Source of the DNA: Methanohalophilus euhalobius | Lineage (GTDB): Archaea; Halobacteriota; Methanosarcinia; Methanosarcinales; Methanosarcinaceae | DNA length: 64,000 nt | Direction of reading: 5' to 3' | Assembly (NCBI RefSeq): GCF_900215215.1 | Contig: NZ_OBDR01000002.1 | Span: forward strand, 186,001-250,000 | In this document: positions 1,233 to 25,464 of the stretch, piece after piece | Layout of the letters: every line of letters starts with the position of its first letter | Position numbering within the stretch: the first letter of the stretch is position 1 | Position numbers and translations under genes: made by a program | Notes under the pieces: generated by a model | Told to the model about the DNA's origin: nothing | Seen by the model: the letters and a program-made list of their open reading frames with translations, nothing else | The model's database searches: none

Positions 1233-1628
1233 ATGAGTGAAAAAATAGGAATTCTAGCAATCGGACATGGAAGCAGACTACCCTACAACAAAGAAGTAGT
1301 TACAAACATCGCCAACACCATCGCAGAAAAACACCCTGAATATGTAATCCGTACAGGTTTCATGGAAAACTGCGGCCCCTCCGTAGAAGAAGCCATGAAA
1401 GAATTCGAGGGAACCGGAGTTACCAGGATTGCAGCAGTTCCCGTATTCCTCGCATCCGGCGTACACATCACCGAAGATATTCCTGAGATTCTCAAACTCG
1501 ACCCCCAAACAAACGAAGGAAAATTTGAGGTCGATGGCAATGAAGTTCCCGTTGTTTACGGAAAACCCCTCGGTAACCACGAAATGCTTGCAGACCTTGT
1601 CTTTGAAAGGGCAAAGGAAGTAATCTGA
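1233..1628 (+). CDS. cfbA: Sirohydrochlorin nickel/cobalt chelatase CfbA
   Basis: First enzyme of coenzyme F430 synthesis: it inserts Ni2+ into sirohydrochlorin (the family can also insert Co2+). The 131-residue length matches the short, homodimeric CbiX-S/CfbA type. The metal-binding histidines are visible in AIGHGSR near the N-terminus and in [13 protein letters not shown] around residue 75. The start ATG has a ribosome binding site (GAGGT, 1221-1225). It heads a five-gene cluster with cfbE, cfbD, cfbC and cfbB, all on the plus strand with short gaps. That context favours the nickel pathway over cobalamin synthesis. Confidence 0.93.
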
Positions 1629-1646
1629 AATAATTTATGAGACCAC

Positions 1647-2981
1647 ATGACAGCAGGACAGAGACATTTCATAGTGCTTGACCTGAATCACGGTGGCCTG
1701 TTGATAAGCAGTAAACTTGCAGGCCACGGATACAGCGTAACCGCAGTGGATGTTTACGGCACACTCCCCCCAAAAAAAATCTCTGACCTGCCTGCTGGAG
1801 TAGAGGTGGTTAGCAAGCCACCTCTGCCGGACAAAAACGCTATTATAATCACACCTGTCCATCTGGACCCCAACTATCCTGTTCTTACAAAAGCCAGATC
1901 GCAGGGAAATACCATCTATTCTCACCATTACATCACCGGCTGGATACTGCGTGAGGAGGGTATCTTCAGTCAAGCAAAAGTAATCGAGATCACCGGGGTT
2001 AAAGCCAAGACCAGTACTGCAACCCTTCTGGCCAGGATACTTTCCTTTAAGGAAGAAGTCATACTACATACAACCCGGGGCATAGAATACCTATCAGAAA
2101 ACCAACACATCATGCTCCATAAAGGTCTCAGTATAACTCCCGCAAGCATACTTGAAGTTGTTAATATTGTCAGAGAGCAGGAAATTGAGCCATCGGTTTA
2201 TGTGCTGGAAGAATCCCTGGGCACAACTGGCATGGGTGAAATGGGCATACTCACAACCCTCAGCCCTGACTACAGGATTGCTTCAAACAGCAAATGGGCA
2301 AGTGAAGCCAAATGGAAGATTATGCAACATCCTGTTGTGATAATGAATCATCAGGACACCAGCCTCATAGAAAATAACACAAAGACTGAGATCATAACAT
2401 TTGCTAACGGCAATCAAAACGCCGATCTTATCAGCAGAATATCCAAAGAAACTATCAGTATTACTTATGATGAAAAAAACATCGACTGCAAACTCCAACC
2501 CGGTTATAATCCTGAAGAATATGCAATTGCTTTTGCCGCCAGCGCATGTGCCGGCCTGCGGGCAGGAGCAGACCCGCACGACATCCAGAGAACCTTTGAA
2601 GGATTTAGTGGTTTAGAAGGAAGAATGCAACGGGTGGAGTTTCAACAAAGGAGACTCATTGATAACTCCAGTTCGGGATTGGATATTGATTCAGCAAGAT
2701 CGGCCATTGAGATGGGACTGAATAAATCTGCAAAAAACGTGCTGATTATCGGAGAACATGCCGCACAGGTATGCGAAGGCTTTGCTCCGGAAAACGTCCA
2801 GATCCTGCTTTCAGAATACAGACAGTTCCTTGACCATGTGATCCTGATAGGCAAACGCATGGAAAACTTAAGTTCACAGGATATCATTCACAGGAAAAAC
2901 CTGCAGGAAGGCCTGGAAAGTGCCCTTTCGTTAACCGACAGCGGCGACACCATTATATCCTGCGTTAAATGTTTCAGGTAA
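1647..2981 (+). CDS. cfbE: Coenzyme F430 synthase CfbE (Mur ligase-like)
   Basis: A 444-residue Mur-ligase-like protein. In the F430 pathway CfbE uses ATP to close the six-membered carbocyclic ring on seco-F430, the last step. The N-terminal part has a Rossmann-like segment ([11 protein letters not shown]). An ATP-binding loop appears around residue 116 as [10 protein letters not shown], a variant of the Mur GTNGKT loop that keeps the Lys-Thr pair. A Mur C-terminal domain begins near [11 protein letters not shown] (about residue 320), with [17 protein letters not shown] after it. The gene ends 14 bp before the cfbD start chosen here. Confidence 0.9.
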
Positions 2982-2995
2982 AAAAGAGGAGAAAA

Positions 2996-4105
2996 ATGCA
3001 GCAGAAGAACCTTTCTATCATGCATCCCCGCCCGAGTTCCATAGTCGCGGCGCTGTACACTTTGAGAGACCTTAATGTTGAAGTCGCAATCCTCCACGGG
3101 CCACCGGGTTGTTCTTTCAAGCATGCAAGATTGCTGGAAGAGGACGGGATCCGGGTTGTGACCACTGCCCTGGACGAAAACGGTTTCGTGTTCGGAGGAC
3201 ATGACCGACTTGTGGATATGTTACAGAAAGTAGAGGAAAGGTTCAGCCCGAAACGCATCGGTGTCGTCGGGACATGTGTGAGCATGATAATCGGCGAGGA
3301 ACTCCATGAAGCGGTCATGGAAGCAAATCTGGATGCCCCTGTAATCGAAGTAGAGGTCCATGCCGGCTACAATGATAACACCAAAGGAGTATTGTTTGCC
3401 CTGGAATCCGCCCTTGATGTAGGAATAATCGACAGGCAGGAATTTGAAAGACAGCAACATCTTCTCAATGAAGCCACAAATGTCGAAAAAAAATATGGAG
3501 CAGCAAGCAAAGAGTATCTTGAACCATCCCGCGGTGATGTAAAATATACTGTGGCAAAAAGAGTCATAGAAATGCTCAAAGCAGGCAAGAAAGGAATCTG
3601 CATCCTCAATGCCAAAAAAGAGACCGCCTACATGTTTGCTGATATAACGATGGCCCTGCATGAAGTGGCCGTAAAACTCGGTGTTGAGGACAACATTGTC
3701 AATTTCGCAAATCTTGATACGGAGCTTGGGTTACCCCGGGTACGCCAGCATGCAGAACATATTCTTGCAGACATGCATGATAACGTAAAAATAGATGAAA
3801 TAATAGGCGGACTGGATGAATATCCCATTGCAGGCCAGCAGGTCAGGCAACTTATAAAATCAAAATACAAAGATTTCGATTTTGCCGTGATCGCCGGTGT
3901 ACCCCATGCAATACCAATGGAAGCGCTTGAAGGCATGGAACTTATATCTATCACTAATGGACCCAGACAGGTTCATCCCCTGAAAGATATGGGGCATAAA
4001 CATGTGCTTGTGGAGATAGACCTCCATCCAAAAACACTGGGTGTGACAAATATTGTGGAATCTGAATTCGGAGCCACATTAAGGCAACTTGCCAGGGAGG
4101 AGTGA
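2996..4105 (+). CDS. cfbD: Ni-sirohydrochlorin a,c-diamide reductive cyclase, catalytic subunit CfbD
   Basis: A NifD-like protein that, with the reductase CfbC, performs the six-electron reduction and gamma-lactam ring formation giving seco-F430. I start it at ATG 2996 (369 residues) because the purine-rich site GAGGAGA lies just before it and family proteins begin near the [13 protein letters not shown] segment; an earlier ATG at 2969 would overlap cfbE. Cysteine-containing loops typical of nitrogenase-like cluster binding are visible: GPPGCSF (about residue 40) and [13 protein letters not shown] (about residue 95). cfbC follows directly. Confidence 0.92.
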
Positions 4106-4106
4106 A

Positions 4107-4904
4107 ATGAATCCACAGAAAAGGATTGCAATCTACGGTAAAGGCGGCATCGGGAAATCAAGTACTGCATCCAATGTAGCCGCTGCGTGTGCCGATGAGG
4201 GCTATAATGTCATGATCATCGGATGTGACCCCAAGAGCGATTCATCCATAACCCTCCTGGGAGGAAAACGTATCCCCACTATCCTGGATCTACTCAGGGA
4301 GGGTATGGAAATAGAAGAGGAAGACGACGTGGTTTTTGAGGGATACAAGGGAGTGAAGTGTGTAGAGGTCGGTGGACCTGAACCGGGTATAGGTTGTGCC
4401 GGCAGGGGAATCATTGTTGCAATCCAGAAACTCAAGAAGATATCCGAATCCATGAAAGAAATGGACCTTATCATTTATGATGTGCCCGGGGATATCGTAT
4501 GTGGCGGATTTGTCGCCCCGATCAGGAAAGGACTGGTCAATGAGGCCTATGTCCTTACATCCGGGGAATACATGCCCCTGTATGCAGCCAACAACATTTG
4601 CAAGGGATTGTCCCGTATAAATACGAAACTTAGCGGTGTAATCTGCAACTCACGCAGTGTCAGTCGGGAAGAGGAGATAGTTAGCAGATTTGCAAATGAA
4701 ATTGGAAGTGACCTGGTGGCCTTTATACCAAAGGAGCAGATCGTTCAGGACTGCGAAAGGGATGGCTATTCCGTGCTTGAAAAGGCGGGAGAGACACCTA
4801 TTGCCGAAGTGTATCGCAGCCTTGCAAGAAATATAATGGCCAGCGATTGTGCGGTCGATCCCGGGGCACTGACAGATGAGCGGCTCAGGGAACTTACCCG
4901 GTAA
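4107..4904 (+). CDS. cfbC: Ni-sirohydrochlorin a,c-diamide reductive cyclase, reductase component CfbC
   Basis: A NifH-like ATPase (265 residues) that passes electrons from a [4Fe-4S] cluster to CfbD. The Walker A loop [10 protein letters not shown] is at the N-terminus, and the two cluster-ligating cysteines of the NifH family are in GIGCAGRGI and PGDIVCGGF. The ATG at 4107 is preferred: GGGAGGAG precedes it, whereas the TTG at 4089 lies inside cfbD. The gene abuts cfbD (stop at 4103-4105), which suggests coupled synthesis of the two subunits. Confidence 0.93.
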
Positions 4905-4912
4905 GGAATTGT

Positions 4913-6358
4913 ATGTCCGATCAAAATCTTATGGAGATGCCCCGTCTGCTGATATCCGCAGATCGTTCTTCTTCCGGTAAAACAACAATTGTTGCCGGAA
5001 TGCTGGCAGCCCTTACTGCAAGGGGATACAGGGTACAGCCTTTCAAGGTCGGCCTGGACTACATCGATCCGAGTTATCATTCTGAAATCACTGGTCGTAA
5101 TGCCCGCAATATTGACGGCTACCTCATGGATGAGGAAGGAATTCGTGATGTGTTCACCCATGGATGTGAAACTGACAAGAAGGCAGATGTTGCCATCATC
5201 GAAGGCGTAAGGGGTCTCTATGAAGGCTTTGATAGTTTCACCGACACTGGAAGTACTGCCCAGATAGCAAAAATACTCAAATGTCCGGTAGTGCTGATAA
5301 TCAATGCCCGCAGTATCACACGTTCAGCCGCAGCCCTTGTAAAAGGTTACACCTCTTTTGATGAAAATATAAACATTGCAGGAGTAATCCTGAATAATAT
5401 CGGAAATCCCCGCCATGCAAAAAAGGCCAGTGAAGCCATTGAGCACTACACCGGGATTCCCGTACTTGGAACCATCCGCAGGGATAATGCAATGCAGATA
5501 TCCATGCGCCACCTCGGACTGATTCCGGCTCTTGAAGGACGCAGACGTATCAGTGACCTGGACCAACGAATCGGAACTATCCGGGACAGGGTGGACGAGG
5601 GGGTGGATATTGCAGAGATACTTAAAATTGCAAACTCTGCAGAACCTGTCGAAAAACCTCCAAGGAGCATGTTCACATCCCGTGACATAAACGGAAAAAG
5701 GCCTAAAATCGGTGTGGCACTTGACGAGGCATTCAATTTTTATTATTATGATAACATCGAATTGCTCCAGCTGGCAGGTGCAGACCTGGAATATTTCAGC
5801 CCGGTCCATGATGGTAAGTTACCGGATGTTGATGGATTGTATATCGGAGGAGGATATCCCGAACTTTTTGCCCCCCAGCTTCAGGACAATGAATCCCTGC
5901 GCCGGGAGATTCGGGAAGCATCCAGATCAGGAATGCCCATTTATGCAGAATGTGGTGGGCTTATGTACCTGACAGAGAAACTCACCACCGGCGTAAAAGG
6001 AAAAGGCACATACCATATGGCAGAAATGCCCGAAGCCACAACCGAAATGGTGGGAGCATTACCCGGCCACACCCTTATGGGACATACACGTGTGGTTAGT
6101 TACAATAACGGTCAAATCGTAAAGGATGCGATCATAGGCAAAAAGGGTAATACATTCAGGGGCCATGAATTCCACCACTCCGAGATAAGGGAAATCCCGG
6201 ATAGCACGGATTTTGCCATTAAACTTTCCCGGGGCATCGGAATCAAAGGTGAATGGGACGGGATGACAGTAGAAAATACACTGGGATCCTATGCACATCT
6301 GGAAGGCGTTTCCTACCGTGAATTTGCCAGGTCCTTTGTGGATTCTATACTGAAGTAA
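4913..6358 (+). CDS. cfbB: Ni-sirohydrochlorin a,c-diamide synthase CfbB
   Basis: Amidates the a and c acetate side chains of Ni-sirohydrochlorin with glutamine and ATP. The 481-residue protein has the CobB/CbiA layout: an N-terminal dethiobiotin-synthetase-like ATPase with P-loop ADRSSSGKTT (about residue 20), then a C-terminal class I glutamine amidotransferase domain with YIGGGYPE and the nucleophile-bearing AECGGLMYL (about residue 345). Family members also serve cobyrinate synthesis; placement beside cfbA, C, D and E assigns it to F430. The gene starts 8 bp after cfbC. Confidence 0.92.
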   Translation: MSDQNLMEMPRLLISADRSSSGKTTIVAGMLAALTARGYRVQPFKVGLDYIDPSYHSEITGRNARNIDGYLMDEEGIRDVFTHGCETDKKADVAIIEGVRGLYEGFDSFTDTGSTAQIAKILKCPVVLIINARSITRSAAALVKGYTSFDENINIAGVILNNIGNPRHAKKASEAIEHYTGIPVLGTIRRDNAMQISMRHLGLIPALEGRRRISDLDQRIGTIRDRVDEGVDIAEILKIANSAEPVEKPPRSMFTSRDINGKRPKIGVALDEAFNFYYYDNIELLQLAGADLEYFSPVHDGKLPDVDGLYIGGGYPELFAPQLQDNESLRREIREASRSGMPIYAECGGLMYLTEKLTTGVKGKGTYHMAEMPEATTEMVGALPGHTLMGHTRVVSYNNGQIVKDAIIGKKGNTFRGHEFHHSEIREIPDSTDFAIKLSRGIGIKGEWDGMTVENTLGSYAHLEGVSYREFARSFVDSILK

Positions 6359-6366
6359 AACCAACC

Positions 6367-6374
6367 TATAAATA
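6367..6374 (+). promoter_or_regulatory. TATA box for endA
   Basis: TATAAATA lies 23 bp before the GTG start of endA and 8 bp after cfbB. At that spacing transcription would start at or next to the start codon, so endA could have a leaderless message of its own in addition to read-through from the F430 operon. Confidence 0.5.
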
Positions 6375-6389
6375 AAAGCGAATCTCATT

Positions 6390-7478
6390 GTGCCATCGCT
6401 ATTTACTGTTTACCGGGTGCTCGGCTTGATTGGAAAATTGAAAGAAGACAGGGTTGTTGCCGGCAAAGAGGCAATTGAAGAGATATATGAAACCAGTTAT
6501 TACGGCAGGCCCAAAAAAGACAATTTAATACTCACCCTGGTTGAAGCAGCACACCTGCTTTACCGTGAGAAACTCGAAATTGAAAGTGAAGGCAAATCAC
6601 TTGGATTTGAAGAGTATTTCAAGAGTGCATCCCTGTTAAACCCAAATTTTGAACTCAAATATATTGTGTATAAGGACCTTCGAGAGCGTGGGTTTTACGT
6701 TCAGCCGGGAGTTGCGGATTTCAGAGTATATCCACGGGGTGGCAAACCCGGAAAATCCTCATCCAGAAGTTATGTGTATGTTCATTCGGAAAGAGTTGCC
6801 CTTCCTCTGTCCGTTCTTTTGAAAAATCTGGAATCAGCATGTAACGTGCACAAACAGCTCATAATTGCAGTTGTGGACGAGGAAAGCGACATTACCTATT
6901 ATGAAGTGCAGGAATCAGACCCTGCAGGTAATATGGAACAGCTGTATCCTTCACTGCATACTCCTGCAACTATGCTTGAGGATCGTGTCATTGTCTGGAA
7001 CAGCGAGGCTTCCGGTAAACTGTACGAAAATGGTTTTTATGGAAAACCCCTGGATCAAAAAAGGCTACAACTGTCCCTTGTAGAGGGGGCTTTCCTGCTA
7101 AAGAACAACATAATTGAAGTAACCACACGAAAGGATGACAACAAACTCAATTTTGATGAATTCTGCGAAAGGGCCGCGCATATCGAGCCTCTTTTCCAGA
7201 GGAAATACAGGGTATATGAAGATCTCAGGACCCGAAAACTCGTACCTAAAACCGGATTCAAGTTCGGTACACATTTCAGGGTCTACAGTGAAGTGAAGTC
7301 CCCATCAGAGATTGCCCACTCCGAATACCTGGCCCATTCGATTGGTACACAGCATGAATTTTCCCTGCCGGTTATGTCAAGGGCAATCAGGCTGGCCAAC
7401 AGTGTGCGTAAAAAAATGCTCTTTGCAATAGAAGCCGATGAAATACGTCATATTGATATTACACGTGTGAAAATGTAA
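6390..7478 (+). CDS. endA: tRNA-splicing endonuclease EndA (tandem-repeat type)
   Basis: Cuts introns out of pre-tRNAs at bulge-helix-bulge motifs. The 362-residue protein is two EndA-like repeats in a row (compare YETSYYGRPKKDNLILTLVE near residue 30 with YENGFYGKPLDQKRLQLSLV near 215), the type that works as a homodimer. The C-terminal copy keeps the catalytic layout: KFGTHFRVY with its His and Tyr, and a Lys in the final helix (VRKKMLFAI). The N-terminal copy has PGVADFRVY without the His, so it looks structural. The start is GTG at 6390, with a TATA box just upstream. Confidence 0.88.
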   Translation: MPSLFTVYRVLGLIGKLKEDRVVAGKEAIEEIYETSYYGRPKKDNLILTLVEAAHLLYREKLEIESEGKSLGFEEYFKSASLLNPNFELKYIVYKDLRERGFYVQPGVADFRVYPRGGKPGKSSSRSYVYVHSERVALPLSVLLKNLESACNVHKQLIIAVVDEESDITYYEVQESDPAGNMEQLYPSLHTPATMLEDRVIVWNSEASGKLYENGFYGKPLDQKRLQLSLVEGAFLLKNNIIEVTTRKDDNKLNFDEFCERAAHIEPLFQRKYRVYEDLRTRKLVPKTGFKFGTHFRVYSEVKSPSEIAHSEYLAHSIGTQHEFSLPVMSRAIRLANSVRKKMLFAIEADEIRHIDITRVKM

Positions 7479-7552
7479 AGACCCAAAAACACAGGCAAAT
7501 AAAAAAGACGAGCTTATTTCAATCCCGGGAACAACTCAAGCGAAGGTATAAG

Positions 7553-8566
7553 ATGAGAAATGAAAAGGATACAAAAATAGCAATCGCCCTGCTTTTTATA
7601 GCAATACTTGCAGTTGCAATTACCTATGCCCTGTATCCCTATATTGAAGCTTTTTTTGCTGCCCTGATTATTTATGTAATAATGAAACCCGCGCATGATT
7701 TGCTGACAAAAAGGCTGAAAATCAATAACCGGGCTGCCTCCATTGTATTGATCGTGCTATCCATTGTAATTATAATAATTCCCCTGTACTACCTGATAAT
7801 CCTTCTATCCCAGCAGGTAGGGCAGGTGCTGGAAATTGTAACAGTAAATATGGATATTATCTACGGGGATTTACAAAAAATAAATGAACTGGTTCCGGCT
7901 CTGGACCTGGAACAGAAAGCATCGGATCTCGTCACAACAATTGGGGGATTCGTAAGCCAGCTTGTGCTGGAAACCATTCAGAACCTGGGAAACCAGCTTA
8001 TCGGCCTGATTATAATGGTTTTCCTGTTGTACTACCTGTTTACCACGGATGATAAGACACTTAAGGACCTGACTTCCAATATAATCCCTTTCAGTGACAG
8101 CAACAAGGATAAATTGATTGGGGAAATGAAGAATATCATCCATTCCACAATAATAGCCACTTTCTTCATAGCAGCCGTGCAGGGCGGATTACTTGCATTC
8201 ACCTTTTATCTGCTTGACATCCAGGGAGCAATACTATGGGGATTCGTCACACTGATTCTTTCAATAATGCCTGTTGTAGGTGCCCCTCTTGTATGGGGCC
8301 CGGCAATTATTTTCAAAGTAATCGAAGGAGATTTGTTTGCTGCAGGTGTCATTTTTATAGCAGGAATGGTAATCAGCAACATAGATAATTTCCTGCGTCC
8401 TTATATTCAGGATAAGGTAGGTGCAATCCATCCCTTTGTTTCCCTGTTGGGAATTTTCATAGGAATATACCTATTCGGACTGGTTGGTATCGTAGTTGGG
8501 CCACTGGTTCTTTCTTCCTTCCTGCTGATGTTAAGAATGTTCTATGAGGATTACATCAAAACCTGA
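7553..8566 (+). CDS. AI-2E family transporter (PerM/TerC-like permease)
   Basis: A 337-residue integral membrane protein with about eight hydrophobic segments, two near the N-terminus (IAIALLFIAILAVAITYAL, then FFAALIIYVIMKP) and the rest in the C-terminal half. The C-terminal signature VGAIHPFVSLLGIFIGIYLF is typical of the AI-2E transporter family. Substrates are unknown for most members; some export autoinducer-2 and others act as sodium/proton antiporters, which would suit a halophile (inference). The neighbours give no clue to its role. Confidence 0.82.
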   Translation: MRNEKDTKIAIALLFIAILAVAITYALYPYIEAFFAALIIYVIMKPAHDLLTKRLKINNRAASIVLIVLSIVIIIIPLYYLIILLSQQVGQVLEIVTVNMDIIYGDLQKINELVPALDLEQKASDLVTTIGGFVSQLVLETIQNLGNQLIGLIIMVFLLYYLFTTDDKTLKDLTSNIIPFSDSNKDKLIGEMKNIIHSTIIATFFIAAVQGGLLAFTFYLLDIQGAILWGFVTLILSIMPVVGAPLVWGPAIIFKVIEGDLFAAGVIFIAGMVISNIDNFLRPYIQDKVGAIHPFVSLLGIFIGIYLFGLVGIVVGPLVLSSFLLMLRMFYEDYIKT

Positions 8567-15660: not shown

Positions 15661-17280
15661 TTACTTTAAGAGTCTTGCCATATCCTCTTCTACAGTAGTG
15701 TTCGGTGTTATGTTGAACTTTTCCACCAGCACTTTCAATACATTAGGGGAAACAAATGCCGGCAGTCTCGGTCCAAGCGTGATATCCTTTATTCCAAGCC
15801 TCAGGAGAGAAAGCAATACAAGGACTGCCTTTTGTTCATACCATGCGATATTGTAGGAGATAGGTGCATCATTGACATCTTCAAATCCAAGTCTGGCCAT
15901 AAGTCCCTGTGCAATGATTACCAGTGAAAATGAATCATTACACTGTCCTGCATCCAGTACTCTGGGAATGCCGTCAATGTCCCCCAGGTTAAGTTTATTG
16001 TAGCGATATTTTGCACATCCAGCGGTAAGTATGACAGTGTCTTCGGGCAGTGCCTCTGCAAAATCTGTGTAGTACTGCCTGTCCTTGTGACGTCCGTCAC
16101 ACCCTGCCATTACAATGAACTTCTTAATTTTGCCCGCCTTGACAGCATCAACAATCTTGTCTGCATTGGACAATACGGTGTTGTAGGCAAACCCACCCGT
16201 AATGGTACCTTCTTCCAGTTGCACAGGAGGTTCACAGGCTTTTGCCTGCCCGATGATGGCAGAGAAGTCTTTCTTACCATCTTTAGGTACAATGTGTGTG
16301 GCACCATCATAACCTACGGACCCGGTAGTGTATAATCTGTCAATGTAGGTCTTCTTCGGAGGAACTATACAGTTGCTTGTCAATAATACTGGTCCGTTGA
16401 AACTCTCGAATTCCTGCTTCTGGTGCCACCATGACCCACCATAGTTGCCCACCAGGTGTTCGTACTTCTTAAACTCAGGATAGGCATTGGCAGGCAGCAT
16501 CTCACCGTGGGTATATACATCGACACCGGTTCCCTCTGCCTGATCCAATAATTGTTTCAGGTCATTCAGGTCATGCCCACTTATGAGAATTGCAGGGTTG
16601 CTTCTAGTTCCGATATTGACCTGAGTCGATTCCGGATGCCCGAATGTAGTGGTATTTGCCATGTCAAGTGCTGCCATCACATCAAAACCCTTTTCCCCGC
16701 ATCTCAGGACCAGGGAGATGAGTTCCTTTTCAGTTAGGCTGTCATCCGTGGTTGCCACAAGGCCTTTCTCAACAAATGAATTGACCTTTTTATTGGTATG
16801 TCCAAGCATCATAGCATGATGGGCATATGCTGCAATTCCTTTGATACCAAAGATCAACAATTCTCTTAATGACCGGATATCTTCATCCTCTGTTGCAAGT
16901 ATGCCGGTATTCCTGTCATTGAGGTTTTCCGGGGTCACAGTTGCTATCCCGGGCAAATTGTTCTCATCAAGTGCATTGTTATCCAGAAGTTTCTGCTTGA
17001 TCTCCTTCTGAAGCTCGAATCCCCTGTCAATACGTTCCTGAATACCGGTTGCTCTGAAATCGGTATTTGTTATGGTTGAGAACAATGCATCGAACATAAA
17101 ATCATCAGTGCTCGTCTCAGAAATGCCCGCCTTTCTTGCTTTCTGGTTGTAGAATGAAATGCTTTTAAGCACATAGATAAGATCGTCCTGAAGGTCTGCA
17201 ACTTCCCCTTTCTTACCGCACATACCATTCTTAGTGCAACCTTCCCCGTTCATTGTTTCTTCACACTGATAACAGAACAT
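15661..17280 (-). CDS. hcp: Hybrid-cluster protein (hydroxylamine reductase), copy 1
   Basis: Hcp holds a [4Fe-4S] and a hybrid Fe-S-O cluster. It reduces hydroxylamine in vitro and is linked to nitric oxide detoxification. The N-terminal cluster motif is C-x2-C-x8-C-x5-C (Cys 3, 6, 15, 21). Hybrid-cluster ligand segments are present: [46 protein letters not shown] and [10 protein letters not shown]. The start MFCYQCEE at 17280 gives 539 residues and has GGTGA before it; the longer frame to 17325 lacks support. A second copy lies at 23776-25464. Confidence 0.93.
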
Positions 17281-17312
17281 TTTATCACCTTTATTTTTAG
17301 TTATGGAATGTA

Positions 17313-17352
17313 GGTATGCAACCATTTATCTGTTTGAGATTGTGGTTGCCAC
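17313..17352. promoter_or_regulatory. Dyad in the hcp leader
   Basis: GGTATGCAACC (17313-17323) and GGTTGCCACC (17343-17352) are imperfect inverted repeats with the core GCAACC/GGTTGC. They lie between the TATA box (17388-17395) and the start codon at 17280, where a bound repressor would block transcription of hcp. Confidence 0.4.
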
Positions 17353-17829: not shown

Positions 17830-18930
17830 TTATTTTTTTGATGGCACCGTTAGTGTAAATGTCGTTCCTTTTCCTAATTCACTTTCCACCTTGATTTTAC
17901 CTCCATACCTTTCAACAACTTTTTTGACAATGTATAAACCAATCCCAGTATTCCCGGTACTTCCAGCCTTGAAATTTTCATCAAATATTTTGTCAAGGAT
18001 ATCTTTTTTCATCCCAGCCCCGTAATCCCTGATACTGATCTCACTATAGTCTTTGTTAGGGGATATCACAATATCCATTTTTTCTGTTTTGCCATGGTTA
18101 ATGGCATTTCGAATCAGATTGTCAATTACAGAACTGAATGCTTCATCAGCTACAATCTTACCGTAACCGCTAATATTGAACTGGATGGGGTAATTGGAAC
18201 TTACTTCTTCTATTATTTCACGGGTTTCATATACTGCAAGTTTGCCTCCTTTGGATACCGTATATTCCAGATTTTTCATGTCATTAACCAATTTTATACT
18301 GGCTTCTACAGATTTCATGACTTTGCTCAGATAAGTAAAATCGCCCTTTTTTTCTGACAGGTATGTTGCCATCTGAATCACGTTTAGATGATTCAATATG
18401 TCATGGCGCAATATTCGATTGATTACCTGTAAAATATCCTTAATTTCAGTTTGTTGAATTTCTATCTTTTTTCTTTCAGCAATAGAGTGAATTACCACTA
18501 CATACCCACTTGTTATTCCGGATTTTTCTTCAATTGCAGAAATACTGAGTTCTACAAAAAACGGTTCCTGGCTATAGGAGAAAAGTAATAGTTCTTTATG
18601 ATGTAAGGGAAATATGCTTTCCTGCTGTGATAATGTAAATACACCATTTTCAGAATTTGATGTTGTTTCTTTAAATTGCAAAACTTCATCGATTGGTTTG
18701 TTGATGATGTCCTGGTTATTACCAATAAAAGAGAATGCTTTTTGATTAACCAGTGTAATAATAAAATTCTCATCTGTCACAATTACAGGATCTGCAATAT
18801 TTTGAAGTGTGACTTTGAATCTCTCTATTTGATATTCCAGATTTTTATTTGTCTTTACAAGATCACGTTGAGTATTTACTAACTCATTATTCAACTGTGA
18901 CATCTGATCATATATTTCACTGTCATCCAT
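17830..18930 (-). CDS. Soluble PAS sensor histidine kinase
   Basis: A 366-residue cytoplasmic kinase. An N-terminal coiled coil (1-36) is followed by one PAS domain (about 37-153), a phospho-acceptor helix with RHDILNH (His176), and an ATPase domain with N box LIRNAINHG, G1 DYGAGM and G2 NTGIGLYIVKK. There is no membrane segment. The RHDI-NH acceptor form is common in methanogen and haloarchaeal kinases. It starts 74 bp after the end of a cobalamin-binding sensor-like protein on the same strand, so it is the likely output partner of that protein. No response regulator lies nearby. Confidence 0.85.
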   Translation of the reverse strand: MDDSEIYDQMSQLNNELVNTQRDLVKTNKNLEYQIERFKVTLQNIADPVIVTDENFIITLVNQKAFSFIGNNQDIINKPIDEVLQFKETTSNSENGVFTLSQQESIFPLHHKELLLFSYSQEPFFVELSISAIEEKSGITSGYVVVIHSIAERKKIEIQQTEIKDILQVINRILRHDILNHLNVIQMATYLSEKKGDFTYLSKVMKSVEASIKLVNDMKNLEYTVSKGGKLAVYETREIIEEVSSNYPIQFNISGYGKIVADEAFSSVIDNLIRNAINHGKTEKMDIVISPNKDYSEISIRDYGAGMKKDILDKIFDENFKAGSTGNTGIGLYIVKKVVERYGGKIKVESELGKGTTFTLTVPSKK

Positions 18931-19004
18931 GCCTATCCCTTCACAAGAATATACAAATCCGGCTTCTTCTGCTATGTTTATTTCAGCAACAAATCACTCA
19001 AACG

Positions 19005-20102
19005 TTATTTCCTGTCAAATAATTCATTTGCCAGCGCCACCGACTGCTTTGCATCCGGAGCATAGAGATCCGCACCCACTTTTTCCCATAATTCAGGATC
19101 GATGTTGAATGGATGTCCACCTACCATGATAGTTGTATTTTCCAGATCTTTTGAATTCCTCAATTCCTGAACCAGTGCCTTTAGCTTATGAACATTGATT
19201 GAAAGGGTAGCAGAAACAATAACAACCTGCGCATTTGTATCATTAACTGTCTGTATTATACTTTCTGCAGGCGTATTTGCTCCCAGGTAATAACTATTCC
19301 AGCCATCCATCTCAAAGAAGTCTGCAACCATTCTCACGCCCAATTCGTGTAATTCATTACCTATGCAGGTAGCCACAACGGTCCTATCCTTATTTCCCTG
19401 TGAAATCATTTCTGGATAAAGCCGGGACATAATGTGTTGAGTTGAAGCAGTAATATAGTGTTCTTTGGCAACGCTTATCACGTTGGTTTGCCAGAGTCTT
19501 CCCACTTCATATTGTGAAGGCTGGAATATATTAAGATAGATATCTTCTATAGTCGCTCCTTTTTCAAGAGCACTGAAAATTAAGTCGGATGCAGCATTCT
19601 TTTTTCCTTCAATAAGCAGGTCAATATATTTGCCTGCTAATTTACCATAATATGTATTTCGATCAATATAAGATACTGTATCATTTTCTTTTTCTTCAAA
19701 TGCCATTAACCCGGCATCTAGATATTCATGTATAATATCTGCTTCTTCCTTTGTAAACTGGTTTTCAGCAACTTTTTCGGAAACAACTTCTTTTATAATC
19801 TGAAAGTTTGTGATCAGGTATTTTTCCGGAATTCCCAGGTTATGCATAAGGACTTTGACCCATTGCATGTAATCCAGGAATAGAGGTTTACTATGAACAC
19901 AGATAGCTTCTCCCAGGTAGAATATGTGATATCTACAATCCTGCAATGACAGTTTTTTTCCTTTTTTGCCATACTTTGCAGTCAATTCGGGTTGCCGGGC
20001 ATATTGTCTTTCGACAACCTTTTCTGAAAGAGTGTTACAATTGGTATACAAAAATTGGCCCATTGATGTACATTTTTCAGGTATTGTATTACTGAGTTGC
20101 AT
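19005..20102 (-). CDS. Cobalamin-binding protein with photoreceptor-type W-x9-EH motif
   Basis: A 365-residue protein. Residues 1-135 form a helical N-terminal region of unknown family (DYMQWVKVLMHNLGIPEKYL). Residues 150-235 look like the helical cap of B12 proteins and 238-365 like the Rossmann B12 domain. The cap has Trp204, then nine residues, then Glu214-His215, the signature of CarH-type light-sensing cobalamin proteins. The Rossmann domain has E-x-H-x-x-G (Glu250, His252, Gly255), a close variant of DxHxxG in which His ligates cobalt. There is no DNA-binding domain, so the signal probably goes to the kinase encoded next. A role as a methyltransferase corrinoid protein is less likely because methyl-carrying relatives lack W-x9-EH. 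Confidence 0.75.
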   Translation of the reverse strand: MQLSNTIPEKCTSMGQFLYTNCNTLSEKVVERQYARQPELTAKYGKKGKKLSLQDCRYHIFYLGEAICVHSKPLFLDYMQWVKVLMHNLGIPEKYLITNFQIIKEVVSEKVAENQFTKEEADIIHEYLDAGLMAFEEKENDTVSYIDRNTYYGKLAGKYIDLLIEGKKNAASDLIFSALEKGATIEDIYLNIFQPSQYEVGRLWQTNVISVAKEHYITASTQHIMSRLYPEMISQGNKDRTVVATCIGNELHELGVRMVADFFEMDGWNSYYLGANTPAESIIQTVNDTNAQVVIVSATLSINVHKLKALVQELRNSKDLENTTIMVGGHPFNIDPELWEKVGADLYAPDAKQSVALANELFDRK

Positions 20103-20197: not shown

Positions 20198-20225
20198 GAC
20201 TAATGGGGCGTAGGGGTAGAGAAAG

Positions 20226-20245
20226 CCTATGACTTTAGTCATAGG
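20226..20245. repeat. Left-end hairpin of the IS605 element
   Basis: Perfect 8-bp stem CCTATGAC/GTCATAGG with loop TTTA, recognised by TnpA in this family. Confidence 0.75.
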
Positions 20246-20314
20246 ATGAATCGTACCCCACTCATTTAGTTAATCACAAATGTTATATAGATGTCAGACA
20301 TATAATACATTATC

Positions 20315-20716
20315 ATGGCAACAGAGAGATGGAAACATAGCAATACAACGGTGTATAACATTGGTTTTCATTTAATATGGTGTCCTAAATATAGACGCAA
20401 TGTTTTAGAAAATGAGATTGAAGCACGTTTAAAGGAACTTCTCTATAATAAAGCAGAAGAAATCGGAGTAATCATTGAAAAAATGGAAATAATGCCCGAC
20501 CACGTTCATCTATTTGTGAAAACTACACCTACAATGAGTCCTCATTGGATTGTTCAACAATTGAAGGGTTATACATCTCGTATTTTAAGACAAGAATTTT
20601 CAGAAATGAGAACTAGACTCCCGACATTATGGACTCGAAGCTACTATTGTGAATCTGTAGGTCACATTTCGGAAACAACGGTTAAAAAATACATTGAGGA
20701 ACAGAAAAATAAATGA
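20315..20716 (+). CDS. tnpA: IS200/IS605 transposase TnpA (HUH tyrosine type)
   Basis: Single-strand transposase of 133 residues, the normal length. The metal-binding HUH motif is in IMPDHVHLFVK (about residue 60) and the catalytic Tyr is in TTVKKYIEEQ near the C-terminus. The N-terminus FHLIWCPKYRRNVL is typical. The reading frame is intact, so the element may still be mobile. The last codons overlap the start of tnpB by 4 bp. Confidence 0.95.
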   Translation: MATERWKHSNTTVYNIGFHLIWCPKYRRNVLENEIEARLKELLYNKAEEIGVIIEKMEIMPDHVHLFVKTTPTMSPHWIVQQLKGYTSRILRQEFSEMRTRLPTLWTRSYYCESVGHISETTVKKYIEEQKNK

Positions 20717-21765
20717 TACTCACATACAAAATCAAGCATCATCGAGATTTTTCCGATGAACTAAAAAAGGCTAAACAAGTAGCCCACTATGTATTAGAGC
20801 ATCATCCGCATTCAGCTAAATTCAGTTCCAAAGATGTAAAACAATTCGGATTAAAATCAGTGATGAGCAATCAGATTATTCGTAAATACGGGCGTAATAA
20901 GAAGATAAAACGTGTCAATAAGGTTAAATTAACAATCCCTAAACAGGGAATCCAGTATGCCCCTGCATCACAAATTATCAAAATAACAGCATTGAAATTG
21001 GAACTTAAACATGAAATCCCCATCTACTTCGACACTATCAATCAGATTGAAGTAGATAACGAATATCTCTTTGTTTCTGTAACCCACAAAGAAAATTCAG
21101 AATATGAAGCTACAGAATGGTTAGGAGTAGACCGAAATACTACAGGTCATATAGCAGTCGTAGCATCTCCTGATACTGGAAAAATTATGAAACTCGGTAA
21201 ATCAGGACAACATATTCATGAAAAATACAAACATATCCGTAAAAATCTACAAAAGAGAGGTAAATATCGAAAAGTAAAACAACTCAAAAACCGTGAAAGT
21301 AGAATCGTCCGAGACATTAACCACAAAATTAGCAAGAAGATAGTGGGTAATGCCTATGAAAATGGCTACGGAATCAAGCTCGAAGAACTCAAGGGCATCC
21401 GTAAGAACAAGAAACAAGCAAAGTCATTCCGTTATTCCTTGAATAGTTGGTCTTTCTATCAGTTCCAAATGATGATAGAATACAAAGCCAAACTACTTGG
21501 AGTTCCTATCGCTTATATCGACCCTGCATACACTTCTCAATCATGTAGCAGATGCGGTCATATAGGGGACAGAAATGGCAAAAACTTCCAGTGTCCTTCT
21601 TGTGGACACGTTGAACATGCGGACGTTAATGCAGCTTTCAACATTGCATTATCTCCAAACATAGTTCGATTTGCTACAGAAAGTGATGTAGCAAAGGGGA
21701 ATACTGGTATCCCCAAAGCGGCAATGATTAGAAAGCAATCAACCGTAGAACCCCACGCACTTTAG
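20713..21765 (+). CDS. tnpB: RNA-guided nuclease TnpB of the IS605 element
   Basis: A 350-residue TnpB, the compact ancestor-type relative of Cas12. RuvC residues are intact: Asp140 (LGVDRNT), Glu224 (KLEELKGI) and Asp304 (HADVNAAFNI). The zinc ribbon has Cys278, 281, 294 and 297. In this family TnpB cuts DNA next to the target motif, guided by RNA from the right end of the element. The gene ends in TAG inside the right-end hairpin. It is the only TAG-terminated gene I read in the window; if TAG is decoded as pyrrolysine here, a fraction of TnpB would be extended by nine residues to TGA. Confidence 0.93.
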   Translation: MILTYKIKHHRDFSDELKKAKQVAHYVLEHHPHSAKFSSKDVKQFGLKSVMSNQIIRKYGRNKKIKRVNKVKLTIPKQGIQYAPASQIIKITALKLELKHEIPIYFDTINQIEVDNEYLFVSVTHKENSEYEATEWLGVDRNTTGHIAVVASPDTGKIMKLGKSGQHIHEKYKHIRKNLQKRGKYRKVKQLKNRESRIVRDINHKISKKIVGNAYENGYGIKLEELKGIRKNKKQAKSFRYSLNSWSFYQFQMMIEYKAKLLGVPIAYIDPAYTSQSCSRCGHIGDRNGKNFQCPSCGHVEHADVNAAFNIALSPNIVRFATESDVAKGNTGIPKAAMIRKQSTVEPHAL

Positions 21766-21782
21766 TCGTGGGAGTATGTCAG
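21630..21782 (+). ncRNA. Predicted omega (guide) RNA of the IS605 element
   Basis: By family rule the guide scaffold comes from the 3' end of tnpB through the right end, with the guide in the host DNA just past 21782. The right-end hairpin overlaps the tnpB stop as expected. The 5' boundary given is only approximate. Confidence 0.4.
21752..21772. repeat. Right-end hairpin of the IS605 element
   Basis: CCCACG (21752-21757) pairs with CGTGGG (21767-21772); inside, AC pairs with GT leaving a bulged C at 21758. The loop TTTA is shared with the left-end hairpin. Confidence 0.75.
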
Positions 21783-21877
21783 CAACAATTGAATGTAAGA
21801 GATTTTCATCCCGGGTATTATGTGGTAAATAATTATATACCTCCAGATTGCTTTTCTTTATGAGGTCTAAAAGGCAC

Positions 21878-23272
21878 ATGAATTAGGTATACAAATACGA
21901 TGTAATTATTATCGGAGCCGGACCTGCCGGGATGTTTGCAGCCAATGAACTTTCCGGTCATGGTTTGAAAATCCTGGTAATTGACAGGGGCAGAGATGTC
22001 GAAAAGAGACATTGTCCTATGGAATCCGTTCAACACTGTATGCACTGTACCCCCTGCAATATCATGTGTGGAGTTGGCGGAGCGGGGACATTTTCTGACG
22101 GGACCCTGAATTTAAGACCGGATACCGGAGGAGATCTTTTAGAATTCACTCATGATCAGGAGAAGGCATGGGAACTTGTGGATTATGTGGATAATATATT
22201 CCTGCAGTGTGGTGCCACAGAAAAAATGATCTCACCAAAGGGAGAAGATGTAGAACAACTACAACGCCGGGCTGCGTCGGTGGGAGCAAAATTCATCGAT
22301 ATAAAACAACGGCATATAGGAACAGATAACGCACCTGCTGTTATTGGGAACTTTAAAAAGAGACTTGATGAAAATGGAGTGGATTTTCTCCTGAATACTG
22401 ACGTGAAAGATCTCTGGATTGAGAACAATGTCTGCAGGGGTGTTTTTCTGAATAACGGCAGGACAATAGAATGCAGTTATACGCTTCTTGCACCCGGCAG
22501 GATTGGGGGAAAATGGGTCAATGAAATGGTTGATAAACATTCCATTGATGCCCGGTTTGCAGGTGTGGACATCGGCGTTCGTGTGGAGGTTCCTGCAATC
22601 ATAATGGATCCTGTGACCAAAATTAACCGTGATCCGAAATTCCACATCCAGACCCGCAAATATGACGATTTCATACGTACTTTCTGTACCAATGAACACG
22701 GTTTTGTTGTCAGGGAAGAGTATGAAGGATTCATTGCCATCAACGGGCATTCAATGCATGACACGGTTTCTGAGAATACCAATTTCGCATTCCTGGTACA
22801 TATCGAACTGACAAAACCCATTGAAAACACAATAAAGTATGCCAGGTCGGTGGCAAAACTGGCAACCACCATAGGAGGAGGCAAACCTGTCCTCCAGAGA
22901 ATGGGAGATCTGAGAAGAGGGCGGCGTTCCACTGAAGCGCGTCTTACAAGAAATCCGGTGGTGAATACCCTAAAAGATGTAACGCCAGGAGATATTTCAA
23001 TGGCCATGCCGCACAGAATAGTTATGGATATCATAGAGGGACTGGAAACCCTTGACAGGATCATCCCCGGTGTGGCTTGCGACTCCACCCTTCTCTATGC
23101 TCCGGAGGTCAAGTTTTATTCCATGAAAATACAGGTTGACGGGAATATGCAATCAAGTACCAGGAACCTGTTTGCAGCCGGGGACGGAGCAGGATTGTCC
23201 AGAGACATAGTTAATGCTTCTGCAACCGGAATCCTGGCGGCAAGAGGAATATTGGAAATATCCGCCCGGTAA
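21878..23272 (+). CDS. FAD-dependent dehydrogenase with in-frame TAG at codon 3 (possible pyrrolysine)
   Basis: A flavoprotein of the uncharacterised COG2509-type dehydrogenases (464 codons from ATG 21878). The dinucleotide-binding motif DVIIIGAGPAG lies upstream of the first Met after the TAG (21932), so translation must start earlier. The only standard start in frame is ATG 21878, with GAGGT at 21862-21866; its third codon is TAG (21884-21886). No ATG, GTG or TTG lies between the TAG and the GAGPAG loop. Later features are HCMHCTPCNIMCGVGGAGTFSDG, here cited as a Cys-rich stretch followed by GVGGAGTFSDG, and the C-terminal FAD loop LFAAGDGAGLSRDIV. Explanations: TAG read as pyrrolysine, a rare non-standard start, or a sequence error. 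Confidence 0.75.
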
Positions 23273-23742: not shown

Positions 23743-23775
23743 GTTGCAAAATATCTATAAAGTGTGGAGGAAAAT

Positions 23776-25464
23776 ATGTTTTGTTACCAATGTGAAGAAA
23801 CAGCAAAAGGAGAAGCCTGTACAAAGGGTGGAGCATGCGGGAAATCAAATGAAGTTGCAGATCTGCAGGACCAGCTTATTTATATGCTTAAAGGTCTTGC
23901 CGCTGTCAACCAGAAAGCAAGAGACACAGTTCCCGAAAATCCGGGACTGAAAACCCGATTAATAAATGCCCTGAAAGGAAATGAGCAAGAGGAAGGAGAA
24001 CCAGAAGATTATATTGATTCCCGTTTCATGGAAGAAGCCCTTTTCTCAACAGTAACCAATGTCAACTTCAGTGCCACTGATTTCAAGAAGTGGATTCAGG
24101 ATGCATATGATAAAAGGGAACAGATTAAATCCGAACTCCAGGCACATGGAGTGGACCTGAGCGAACTTCCACAGGCTGCAACGGTCAACCCGGATGAACT
24201 TGGAAACACGGATTCAGTCAGCATCCTGGCAACTGAAAATGAAGATATCAGATCCCTGAAAGAATTACTGGTATATGGTCTAAAAGGTATGGCTGCTTAT
24301 GCATACCATGCCCGTGTGCTTGGTCACAAAGATAAAGATATTGAGGCTTTTGTTGACAGGGCACTGGTAGCCACTCTTGATGACTCCCTGTCAGTAGATG
24401 ACCTCACAGGCCTGGTGCTGGAATGTGGAAGTTTCGGTGTCAAGACAATGGCAATGCTGGATGAAGCCAATACTGCAGCCTATGGCCATCCGGAACCCAC
24501 AGAAATTAACATTGGAACCGGGAACAATCCGGGAATCCTTATCAGTGGGCATGATCTGAAGGACATGGACCAGCTCCTGAAACAGACTGAAGGCACCGGT
24601 GTCGATGTATATACCCACGGTGAGATGCTTCCTGCCAATGCCTATCCTGAATTTAAGAAGTACGAACACCTGGTGGGCAACTACGGTGGGTCATGGTGGC
24701 ACCAGAAAACCGAATTTGAAAAATTCAATGGTCCTGTACTTATGACCACAAACTGTCTTGTACCACCCAGGGATTCCTATTCAGACCGGATATTCACAAC
24801 AGCAATGGTCGGATTTGAAGGACTCAAACACATCGAAGAGAAAGAAGACGGTACAAAAGATTTCTCTGAAATCATTGAAATGGCAAAACAATCCAGACCA
24901 CCCGTACAACTGGAAAATGGCGCAATACCTGCCGGATTTGCACACAATGCCGCCCTTTCAGTTGCCGACAAGATCGTGGATGCAGTAAAAGCCGGCCAGA
25001 TATCCCGGTTTATTGTCATGGCAGGGTGTGACGGGAGACAGCACGACAGGGAATATTATACTGAATTTGCAAAACAACTGCCACAGGATGCGGTAATTCT
25101 TACAGCAGGTTGTGCCAAGTATCGGTATAATAAGCTGGACCTGGGAGACATTGGCGGTATACCCAGAGTACTGGATGCGGGCCAGTGTAATGATTCCTAC
25201 TCACTGGTTGTCATTGCCCAGAAGCTGGCTGAAGCCTTTGAACTGGATGACATAAATGATCTGCCGGTTTCCTACAATATTGCCTGGTATGAACAAAAGG
25301 CAGTCCTTGTCTTGCTTGCCCTGCTAAGTCTTGGCGTCAAGAACATTGTACTGGGGCCGAGATTGCCGGCGTTTGTTTCCCCGAATGTGTTAAACGTGCT
25401 GGTTGAAAATTTCAACATCAGCAAGAACACAACTGTAGAAAATGATCTGGGGAGGCTGCTCTAA
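23776..25464 (+). CDS. hcp: Hybrid-cluster protein (hydroxylamine reductase), copy 2
   Basis: A 562-residue paralogue of the protein at 15661-17280, with the same Cys 3, 6, 15, 21 cluster motif and the same hybrid-cluster segments ([56 protein letters not shown]). It is longer because of an insert around residues 60-80 ([18 protein letters not shown]). The start ATG 23776 follows GGAGG (23766-23770); a GTG at 23764 is the alternative. Its likely regulator is the divergent HxlR gene. A cupin gene follows 32 bp downstream. Confidence 0.93.

Follow-up and report, generated by a model that had tools for sequence, protein, structure and literature searches.

Non-heme globins tied to a B12-binding domain and to signalling domains were reportedly described by Schneider et al. 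in 2022 as photoglobins, predicted tandem light sensors, in work whose abstract is said to mention gene neighbourhoods. Here we describe a gene of this kind and the histidine kinase gene beside it in a 64,000-nucleotide stretch of Methanohalophilus euhalobius DNA (contig NZ_OBDR01000002.1, positions 186,001 to 250,000), the whole of which is called the window below; judged from sequence and models, the pair is probably a B12-based light sensor of the photocobilin type that drives a dedicated histidine kinase. The photocobilins characterized by Zhang et al. 2024 (PMC10979010) are bacterial. Groups carrying the B12 domain N- or C-terminally and action in trans on a separate enzyme are described there, and the signal output of stand-alone photocobilins is called unclear. 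The window protein resembles SasPcob (8J2W and 8J2X) and AbDPcob (8J2Y) in its light-type B12 domain with Trp, Glu-His pair and cobalt His and in its phycobiliprotein-type globin with the biliverdin-contact Asp and Trp, and it shares with SasPcob a Gln at the position of CarH His132. It differs from both in carrying the globin first and the B12 domain second, in being partnered by a separately encoded histidine kinase that bears a coupling helix and in its methanogen host, where no biliverdin source was found.

CarH and LitR share with the window protein the W-x9-EH and E-x-H-x-x-G motifs and the fold of the B12 domain (VIA Z about 18–21), but the window protein lacks their MerR DNA-binding domain, has Gln for His132 and possesses a globin. 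In Rockwell et al. 2023 (PMC10151467), BBAG-2 globins are likewise bilin-binding globins beside a B12 protein, but as separate polypeptides accompanied by heme oxygenase and bilin reductase genes, whereas here the two are fused and no heme oxygenase was found (bilin reductases were not searched for). Our literature search returned no report of a methanogen photocobilin or of the kinase helix, with priority uncertain, as the content of Schneider 2022 lay outside the comparison. The new elements would be the coupling in trans to a kinase through a conserved helix and the methanogen host without a detected heme oxygenase; the family and the domain order have already been described.

A photocobilin-type protein with a light-type B12 domain

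The two genes of the pair are:
19005..20102, minus strand: photocobilin-type protein, 365 amino acids, N-terminal globin and C-terminal B12-binding domain (profile, sequence and model comparison)
17830..18930, minus strand: histidine kinase, 366 amino acids, helix, PAS, DHp and HATPase (domain profiles, alignment)

The kinase gene lies downstream on the same strand after a gap of 74 bp, in agreement with the sequence-only reading, which had placed a PAS histidine kinase there, and translation returned Trp204, Glu214-His215 and E250-L-H252-E-L-G255 at the positions it had given. The B12-binding part comprises:
19014..19655, minus strand: B12-binding domain, residues 150–363, with a four-helix cap (158–228) and a Rossmann part (241–351) (Pfam; VIA Z 25.9 to 8J2W)
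19491..19493, minus strand: Trp204, the adenosyl-stacking Trp of light-type domains (W in 85/85 rows)
19458..19463, minus strand: Glu214-His215 (E in 84/85 and H in 85/85 rows)
19338..19355, minus strand: E250-L-H252-E-L-G255, with His252 the predicted lower cobalt ligand (H in 85/85 rows)

The rows are those of an alignment of 85 photocobilin-type proteins that includes the window protein and near-identical pairs (the duplicates of the window gene, L002 and L009, were removed, and L010 was trimmed before its stop codon). Trp204, His215 and His252 are invariant in it and Glu214 is absent from a single row, so that W-x9-EH, singled out by the sequence-only reading, is conserved across the homologues. 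The motif occurred in 3 of 1724 unrelated open reading frames of at least 100 amino acids and was absent from 29 rows of other B12 proteins, five from the same genome and the rest from relatives (one protein accounts for both L014 and L035, and the L033 row is a photocobilin fragment). A chance motif was rejected on the 85-row conservation and this rarity. Four B12 rows of the window's family (L013, L015, L028 and L037) show a near-miss, W-x9-E-Y, and this half-motif may mark a further group of B12 proteins outside the methyltransferases.

Among solved structures, phmmer found the photocobilins closest (8J2W and 8J2X of SasPcob, E 3.2e-21, and 8J2Y), with TtCarH (5c8a) at E 1.8e-6. The full-length AlphaFold2 model had a predicted local distance difference test score (pLDDT) of 94.3 and a predicted template modelling score (pTM) of 0.89. 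Its B12 domain superposed by VIA on 8j2w with Z 25.9 and a root-mean-square deviation of 1.9 over 208 residues at 28% identity; photocobilins scored Z 25.5–25.9, CtMerR 22.2, the methylamine corrinoid protein 3ezx 22.0 and CarH about 18–21. Foldseek gave a different order, with the CtMerR B12 domain first, a corrinoid protein fifth and SasPcob seventh. The best NCBIfam score was to MtbC (60.5 bits, cut-off 350), with 55.9 bits for CarH (cut-off 400) and 54.7 bits for pyl_corrinoid (cut-off 215.3), whereas the true corrinoid members L001 and L004 do exceed the corrinoid cut-off. Together with the alignment and the VIA ranking, these scores below cut-off uphold the earlier assignment to a light-type B12 domain rather than to a methyltransferase corrinoid protein.

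The absence of a MerR domain, also predicted earlier, was borne out by the Pfam scan, which found no MerR-type DNA-binding domain in the B12 protein; a globin stands in its place. CarH, the model adopted in the sequence-only reading, fared less well. A CarH that has lost MerR was rejected, photocobilins being closer both by sequence and by VIA and a globin being present. CarH His132 aligns with Gln205 of the window protein (Gln in 56/85 rows, His in 9/85). Because SasPcob likewise has Gln at this position and a water-ligated light state (PMC11796333, PMC10979010), bis-His light chemistry is unlikely in the window protein, and the bis-His test proposed earlier is not the right one. By sequence the gene is a photocobilin (photoglobin) with the globin first and the B12 domain second, not a CarH without its MerR domain. 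Its domain order is a known arrangement, since published photocobilins may carry the B12 domain N- or C-terminally (PMC10979010).

A bilin-type globin at the N-terminus

The first 140 residues had been overlooked in the sequence-only reading; residues 13–140 form a bilin-type globin domain.
19683..20066, minus strand: phycobiliprotein-type globin domain, residues 13–140 (Pfam, AlphaFold2 model, Foldseek, VIA)
19938..19940, minus strand: Asp55, equivalent to SasPcob Asp270, a biliverdin contact (alignment; numbering from PMC10979010)
19860..19862, minus strand: Trp81, equivalent to SasPcob Trp296, in contact with the biliverdin D-ring and the corrin (alignment)

Pfam Phycobilisome matched residues 18–130 just under its cut-off (E 4.4e-4, 20.7 bits, cut-off 22.2). 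Modelled alone by AlphaFold2, the globin reached a pLDDT of 90, and when this model was compared with the PDB by Foldseek, at least 48 of the 50 matches listed were phycobiliproteins or their derivatives by title, at probability 1.00; the remaining ones were an R-phycoerythrin antibody complex and one 'bacterial fluorescent protein'. Among those listed, the best E was 1.6e-3 and none was at E ≤ 0.001. VIA placed the globin at Z 16.5 to the biliverdin protein smURFP. A heme globin or protoglobin was set aside (Pfam Protoglobin at only E 0.1, 13 bits). A second phmmer alignment, weak and not significant alone, joined residues 52–92 to the C-terminal bilin globin of SasPcob; with the shift of six between the SasPcob chain and the published numbering, anchored on Trp61, it equates D55 with Asp270 and W81 with Trp296, both named as biliverdin contacts in PMC10979010. 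Among the 75 rows that extend over the globin region, 64 have Asp at the D55 position and 72 have Trp at the W81 position, the other three being gaps. Both residues are present in all five copies of the window's family, namely the window, its two congeners and two other family carriers, while in Methanomicrobiales-type copies Asp55 and/or Trp81 are often changed and the B12 residues remain. (The labels Methanosarcinaceae and Methanomicrobiales-type given to our G-numbered genomes are inferred; the second rests on tree clustering with named records.)

A recurring kinase partner and its conserved helix

The kinase is built as follows:
18817..18924, minus strand: coupling helix, kinase residues 3–38 (SQLNNELVNTQRDLVKTN) (partner alignment, helix model)
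18478..18825, minus strand: PAS domain, residues 36–151 (Pfam)
18403..18405, minus strand: His176, predicted phospho-acceptor, invariant in 55 aligned partner kinases (alignment)
17836..18138, minus strand: HATPase_c domain, residues 265–365, 90 bits (Pfam)

A domain scan of the window kinase found no response-regulator domain. Across phyla, 51 of 84 non-redundant photocobilin-type genes are followed immediately, in the same orientation, by a histidine kinase gene. A kinase is rarer in the preceding position (6 of 83) and two genes downstream (15 of 79), which supports the link to the kinase suggested earlier. For this count, 93 genes above 110 bits were reduced to 85 at 80% identity, and the window row was dropped as a near-copy of G006; eight of the 85 are shorter than 300 amino acids, two loci contribute two genes each, and loci with uncalled genes (L048, L064, L094, L095, L110, L112, L113, L117, L156 and L157) are omitted. 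The pairing also occurs as a natural fusion. On the verrucomicrobial contig L058, two divergent genes (1407-5252 and 5935-8535), about 680 bp apart, each fuse photocobilin, helix and kinase.

The window kinase was aligned with 54 of 58 partners (L142, L080, L106 and L109 excluded) in an alignment, A2, that was not selected on any motif. All 55 have HATPase_c, as implied by how they were chosen. Mean column identity is 19%, yet N14, N15, L17, R22 and L24 of the window kinase fall in columns at least 90% conserved, and such columns lie in the helix, with consensus LNNELVNxQRELxKxN. The mean share of the top residue in A2 was 0.66 for the helix, 0.51 for the ATPase domain and 0.40 for the phospho-acceptor helices. 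Two further alignments, A1 (53 rows) and A3 (51 rows), were hand-chosen from the loci. A fourth, A4, holds 32 of 34 helix stretches (L082 and L142 excluded) preselected by a regular expression, which makes invariance within it partly circular.

The helix model matched 71 of 1082 genes in the loci, 61 of them directly after a called photocobilin-type gene. The other ten comprise two with one gene between, two that are fused, two after an uncalled or broken photocobilin and four near a globin-less B12 protein. Conversely, 52 of the 57 kinases directly after a photocobilin-type gene have the helix. Nine helix genes are non-kinase by the same test, and four of these have GGDEF. In an even sample of the archaeal phylum, 6 of 392 genomes had a strong helix match, exactly the carriers of a globin-bearing photocobilin with a kinase within one gene. 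Since A4 contains the helices of the window, G006, G007, G080, G082 and one G333 copy, matches there follow by construction, but absence elsewhere does not. Both G333 copies have the helix; in G006 and G007 photocobilin and kinase are separated by a single small gene; and in G162, G224 and G255, which have a globin-less B12 match, a kinase adjoins and the helix is absent at the strong threshold. In Bacteroidota the helix was found in 14 of 296 genomes, in each case as a strong match no more than 0.6 kb downstream of a photocobilin-type match, with two exceptions in form (a stop interrupts the photocobilin of G654, and the match in G555 is to the B12 part alone). Thirty-eight of these genomes match the photocobilin at all, and 12 of the 14 with an unbroken globin-bearing match have the helix; G654 has an extra weak helix match (22.5 bits) elsewhere in its genome. 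Taking the photocobilin and helix scans as the same draws of 392 and 296 genomes (equal sizes, same handles), 20 of 688 genomes have a strong helix match, each no more than 0.7 kb downstream of a photocobilin-type gene.

In the bacterial partners examined, an N-terminal stretch precedes the helix and the kinase core, whereas the window kinase lacks this stretch and its PAS domain follows the helix. Because it is the constant part besides the kinase core, the helix is the best candidate for the photocobilin–kinase coupling site, and gene order, helix specificity and natural fusion together support the view that the pairing is real. By eye, the N-terminal stretch of about 140 amino acids is alike in several partner kinases and GGDEF proteins (L055:7011-7430, L068, L114, L061, L067, L053, L101 and L107), often with a C-x3-G-x-I start and an NNEQ-N-x2-R end. 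That of L055, the sole one scanned, had no Pfam match, and the shared stretch is possibly an undescribed PAS-like domain.

Proposed mechanism and points against it

From the conserved residues and the fold, the B12 domain would bind a base-off cobamide bearing an adenosyl group, His252 serving as the lower ligand and Trp204 and Glu214-His215 surrounding that group. The globin would pack on the B12 domain and could hold a linear tetrapyrrole at Asp55 and Trp81, broadening the wavelengths sensed, although its occupancy is doubtful. Light would then break the Co–C bond to give water-ligated Co(III) and a change of dimer, as in SasPcob and not by the bis-His route of CarH. The LNNELVN helix at the kinase N-terminus may read the state of the sensor, altering autophosphorylation of His176 through a presumed contact, in either direction, and the phosphate would pass from His176 to a putative response regulator. 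A fuller proposal is a light-responsive two-component pathway in a strictly anaerobic methanogen, with a globin tetrapyrrole from a source other than heme oxygenase (candidates are a bilin made anaerobically and some other open-chain tetrapyrrole) and with LNNELVN as a portable helix that plugs photocobilins into kinases and diguanylate cyclases; taken whole, it is speculative and rather improbable.

Several results weigh against a light sensor driving a kinase. The globin stays below the Pfam cut-off, and its best E in Foldseek is only 1.6e-3. The GxxH element of SignatureFinder is not strictly present, the window reading N249-E-L-H252 (G in 42/85 rows, N in 8/85). No cognate response regulator was identified, the genome and neighbours not having been searched for regulators. 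Ten of the 16 globin-bearing archaeal carriers in the phylum sample have neither kinase nor helix, two of the 14 globin-bearing Bacteroidota carriers (G542 and G653) lack the helix, and kinases also follow globin-less B12 proteins (L158 and L159). Co-inheritance within an operon could explain conservation of the helix with no contact needed, an explanation that is weaker but possible. As to pigments, PF01126 heme oxygenase was found in none of 24 archaeal genomes searched (other oxygenase families were not searched), HutW/ChuW-type enzymes exceeded the cut-off in none of 21, and CobA/BtuR-type adenosyltransferase (PF02572) was found in none of 21 archaeal carriers (PduO-type enzymes were not searched).

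Because no archaeal genome in that search has a PF01126 heme oxygenase, the methanogen copies have no known biliverdin source. The 24 genomes are perhaps 23, as L056 and G333 are apparently the same, and G162, G224 and G255 have a B12-domain match only. PF01126 was present in 3 of 16 bacterial genomes, many of them metagenome assemblies that may be incomplete, leaving 37 of 40 genomes without it, and in 3 of 14 controls. Anaerobic heme opening by HutW/ChuW was rejected, 9 of the 21 genomes giving weak radical-SAM matches. Among CobA-type controls, Methanosarcina acetivorans has an enzyme and M. jannaschii does not. Heme b synthase was above cut-off in 5 of 21 genomes, all of the window's family (window gene at 45641-46702), and four further genomes, at 305–314 bits against a cut-off of 500, may also carry it. 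Retention of the bilin residues does not simply track this enzyme, as G333, which lacks any match close to the cut-off, keeps both D and W. In Methanomicrobiales-type copies the bilin contacts are often changed while the B12 residues stay, so B12 sensing would be the conserved core, and the bilin site may be optional or hold some other ligand.

Alternative readings

Methylotrophic methanogens depend on corrinoids, and a sensor of cobamide status, reporting the adenosyl, methyl or cob(II) state or the corrinoid supply to the kinase with light not the natural signal, would suit a methylotroph running on corrinoid methyl transfer, whose MtaC is above cut-off. Neither a bilin source nor a CobA-type adenosyltransferase was found in the genomes searched, and light may be scarce in the habitat of an anaerobe. 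The adenosyl-stacking Trp and the Glu-His pair are nevertheless kept across photocobilins and absent from the five other aligned B12 proteins of the genome, and the bilin-contact Asp and Trp kept in the five family copies would be needless in a pure corrinoid sensor; we regard this explanation as unlikely, though a genuine contender. A sub-case of the light-sensor reading has light acting through the cobamide only, the globin being a structural shield or binding a non-bilin ligand. The scarcity of PF01126 and the many Methanomicrobiales-type copies that have lost Asp55 and/or Trp81 with their B12 residues intact speak for it, as do full-length AbDPcob, light-activated with adenosylcobalamin alone (PMC10979010), and the precedent of AbPcob, which binds biliverdin weakly. 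Retention of D55 and W81 in the five family copies and in most bacterial relatives tells against it, which leaves it possible but short of favoured.

Cobalt redox state, not light, could be read by a redox or oxygen sensor tied to the neighbouring hybrid-cluster (hydroxylamine reductase) gene, which in the window lies past the kinase, on the same strand, and by sequence also occurs in G006; but no such gene was seen in 11 kb around the pair in G007, the neighbour that recurs across phyla is the kinase, and the light-type residues are kept, making this very improbable. For a methyltransferase corrinoid protein, the top NCBIfam score, to MtbC, is far under its cut-off, and the Z of 3ezx, tied with that of the light-sensing CtMerR and exceeding that of CarH (about 21), is clearly surpassed by those of the photocobilins. 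The other 29 B12 rows lack W-x9-EH, the globin is extra to such a protein and the constant partner is a kinase. On the scores under cut-off, the motif and the fold ranking, this identity was rejected and is hardly credible.

Host, locus and distribution

The host is well supported as a methylotrophic methanogen: CfbC and CfbD of F430 synthesis in the window and the methanol corrinoid protein MtaC elsewhere in the genome are all above curated cut-offs, in line with the methanogen assumed in the sequence-only reading. Its view that a light- or adenosylcobalamin-responsive pathway would be unusual in a strictly anaerobic archaeon fits the rarity of the gene among the methanogens sampled: 19 of the 392 archaeal-phylum genomes match, 16 with the globin part. 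In the window's family, a full-length copy occurs in 5 of 111 genomes (3 of 8 from the genus of the window, 2 from another genus). Bacterial copies are widespread; a scan of genome contigs gave 95 confirmed matches, of which 80 loci were kept, some with the B12 domain only, and carriers include Chloroflexota, Bacteroidota, Ignavibacteriota and Paenibacillus. The congener G004 (L012/L156) has a broken photocobilin remnant whose matches fall in two reading frames and stop near residue 80-81. This distribution marks the gene as accessory and sporadic, with loss in at least one congener. In a quick tree, the window's family (five copies) grouped near a Spirochaetaceae copy (97 by the Shimodaira–Hasegawa-like approximate likelihood ratio test) and the Methanomicrobiales-type copies formed a clade by themselves. 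Separate origins for these two sets of methanogen copies are not claimed, as a tree uniting all methanogen copies was not rejected and scores higher (approximately unbiased test, p-AU 0.659). In four Methanomicrobiales-type loci (L148, L149, L150 and L151), a gene of about 385 amino acids precedes the photocobilin by one to three genes, with no kinase partner there; in L149 it encodes a radical SAM/SPASM protein, and the others begin with the same sequence.

In two congeners a gene of unknown family, of 164 or 177 amino acids, lies between photocobilin and kinase (L140:6132-6626 and L141:4434-4967). It was probably lost in the window, where the gap is just 74 bp. The middle gene of G006 (L140) had no Pfam match at E 0.01; Utp12 alone appeared, at E 0.035 and below its cut-off. 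An IS200/IS605-type element (window 20198-21894), a stretch with no blastn match in the corresponding region of G006 (L140) or G004 (L156), is situated upstream of the photocobilin gene, about 95 bp from its start:
20315-20716: Y1 transposase of the element
20713-21765: TnpB-like gene of the element

Hybrid-cluster-protein-like genes stand on both sides of the region, at 15661-17325, above the hydroxylamine reductase cut-off, and at 23764-25464, assigned by eye; a similar gene lies near the pair in G006. A sigma-70 promoter scan, uninformative for an archaeal host, found 15 sites against 12.6 expected.

Implications

If the light-sensor reading is true, a strict anaerobe with no known route found to one of the two pigments would be able to sense light. 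The methanogen copy, without a detected heme oxygenase, raises the questions of what fills the bilin site and whether it is light or corrinoid state that the methanogen reacts to. Kinases controlled by green or red light could also be built with the helix. For the family as a whole, the recurring kinase partner, the short helix and the natural fusions together offer a concrete, testable coupling element.

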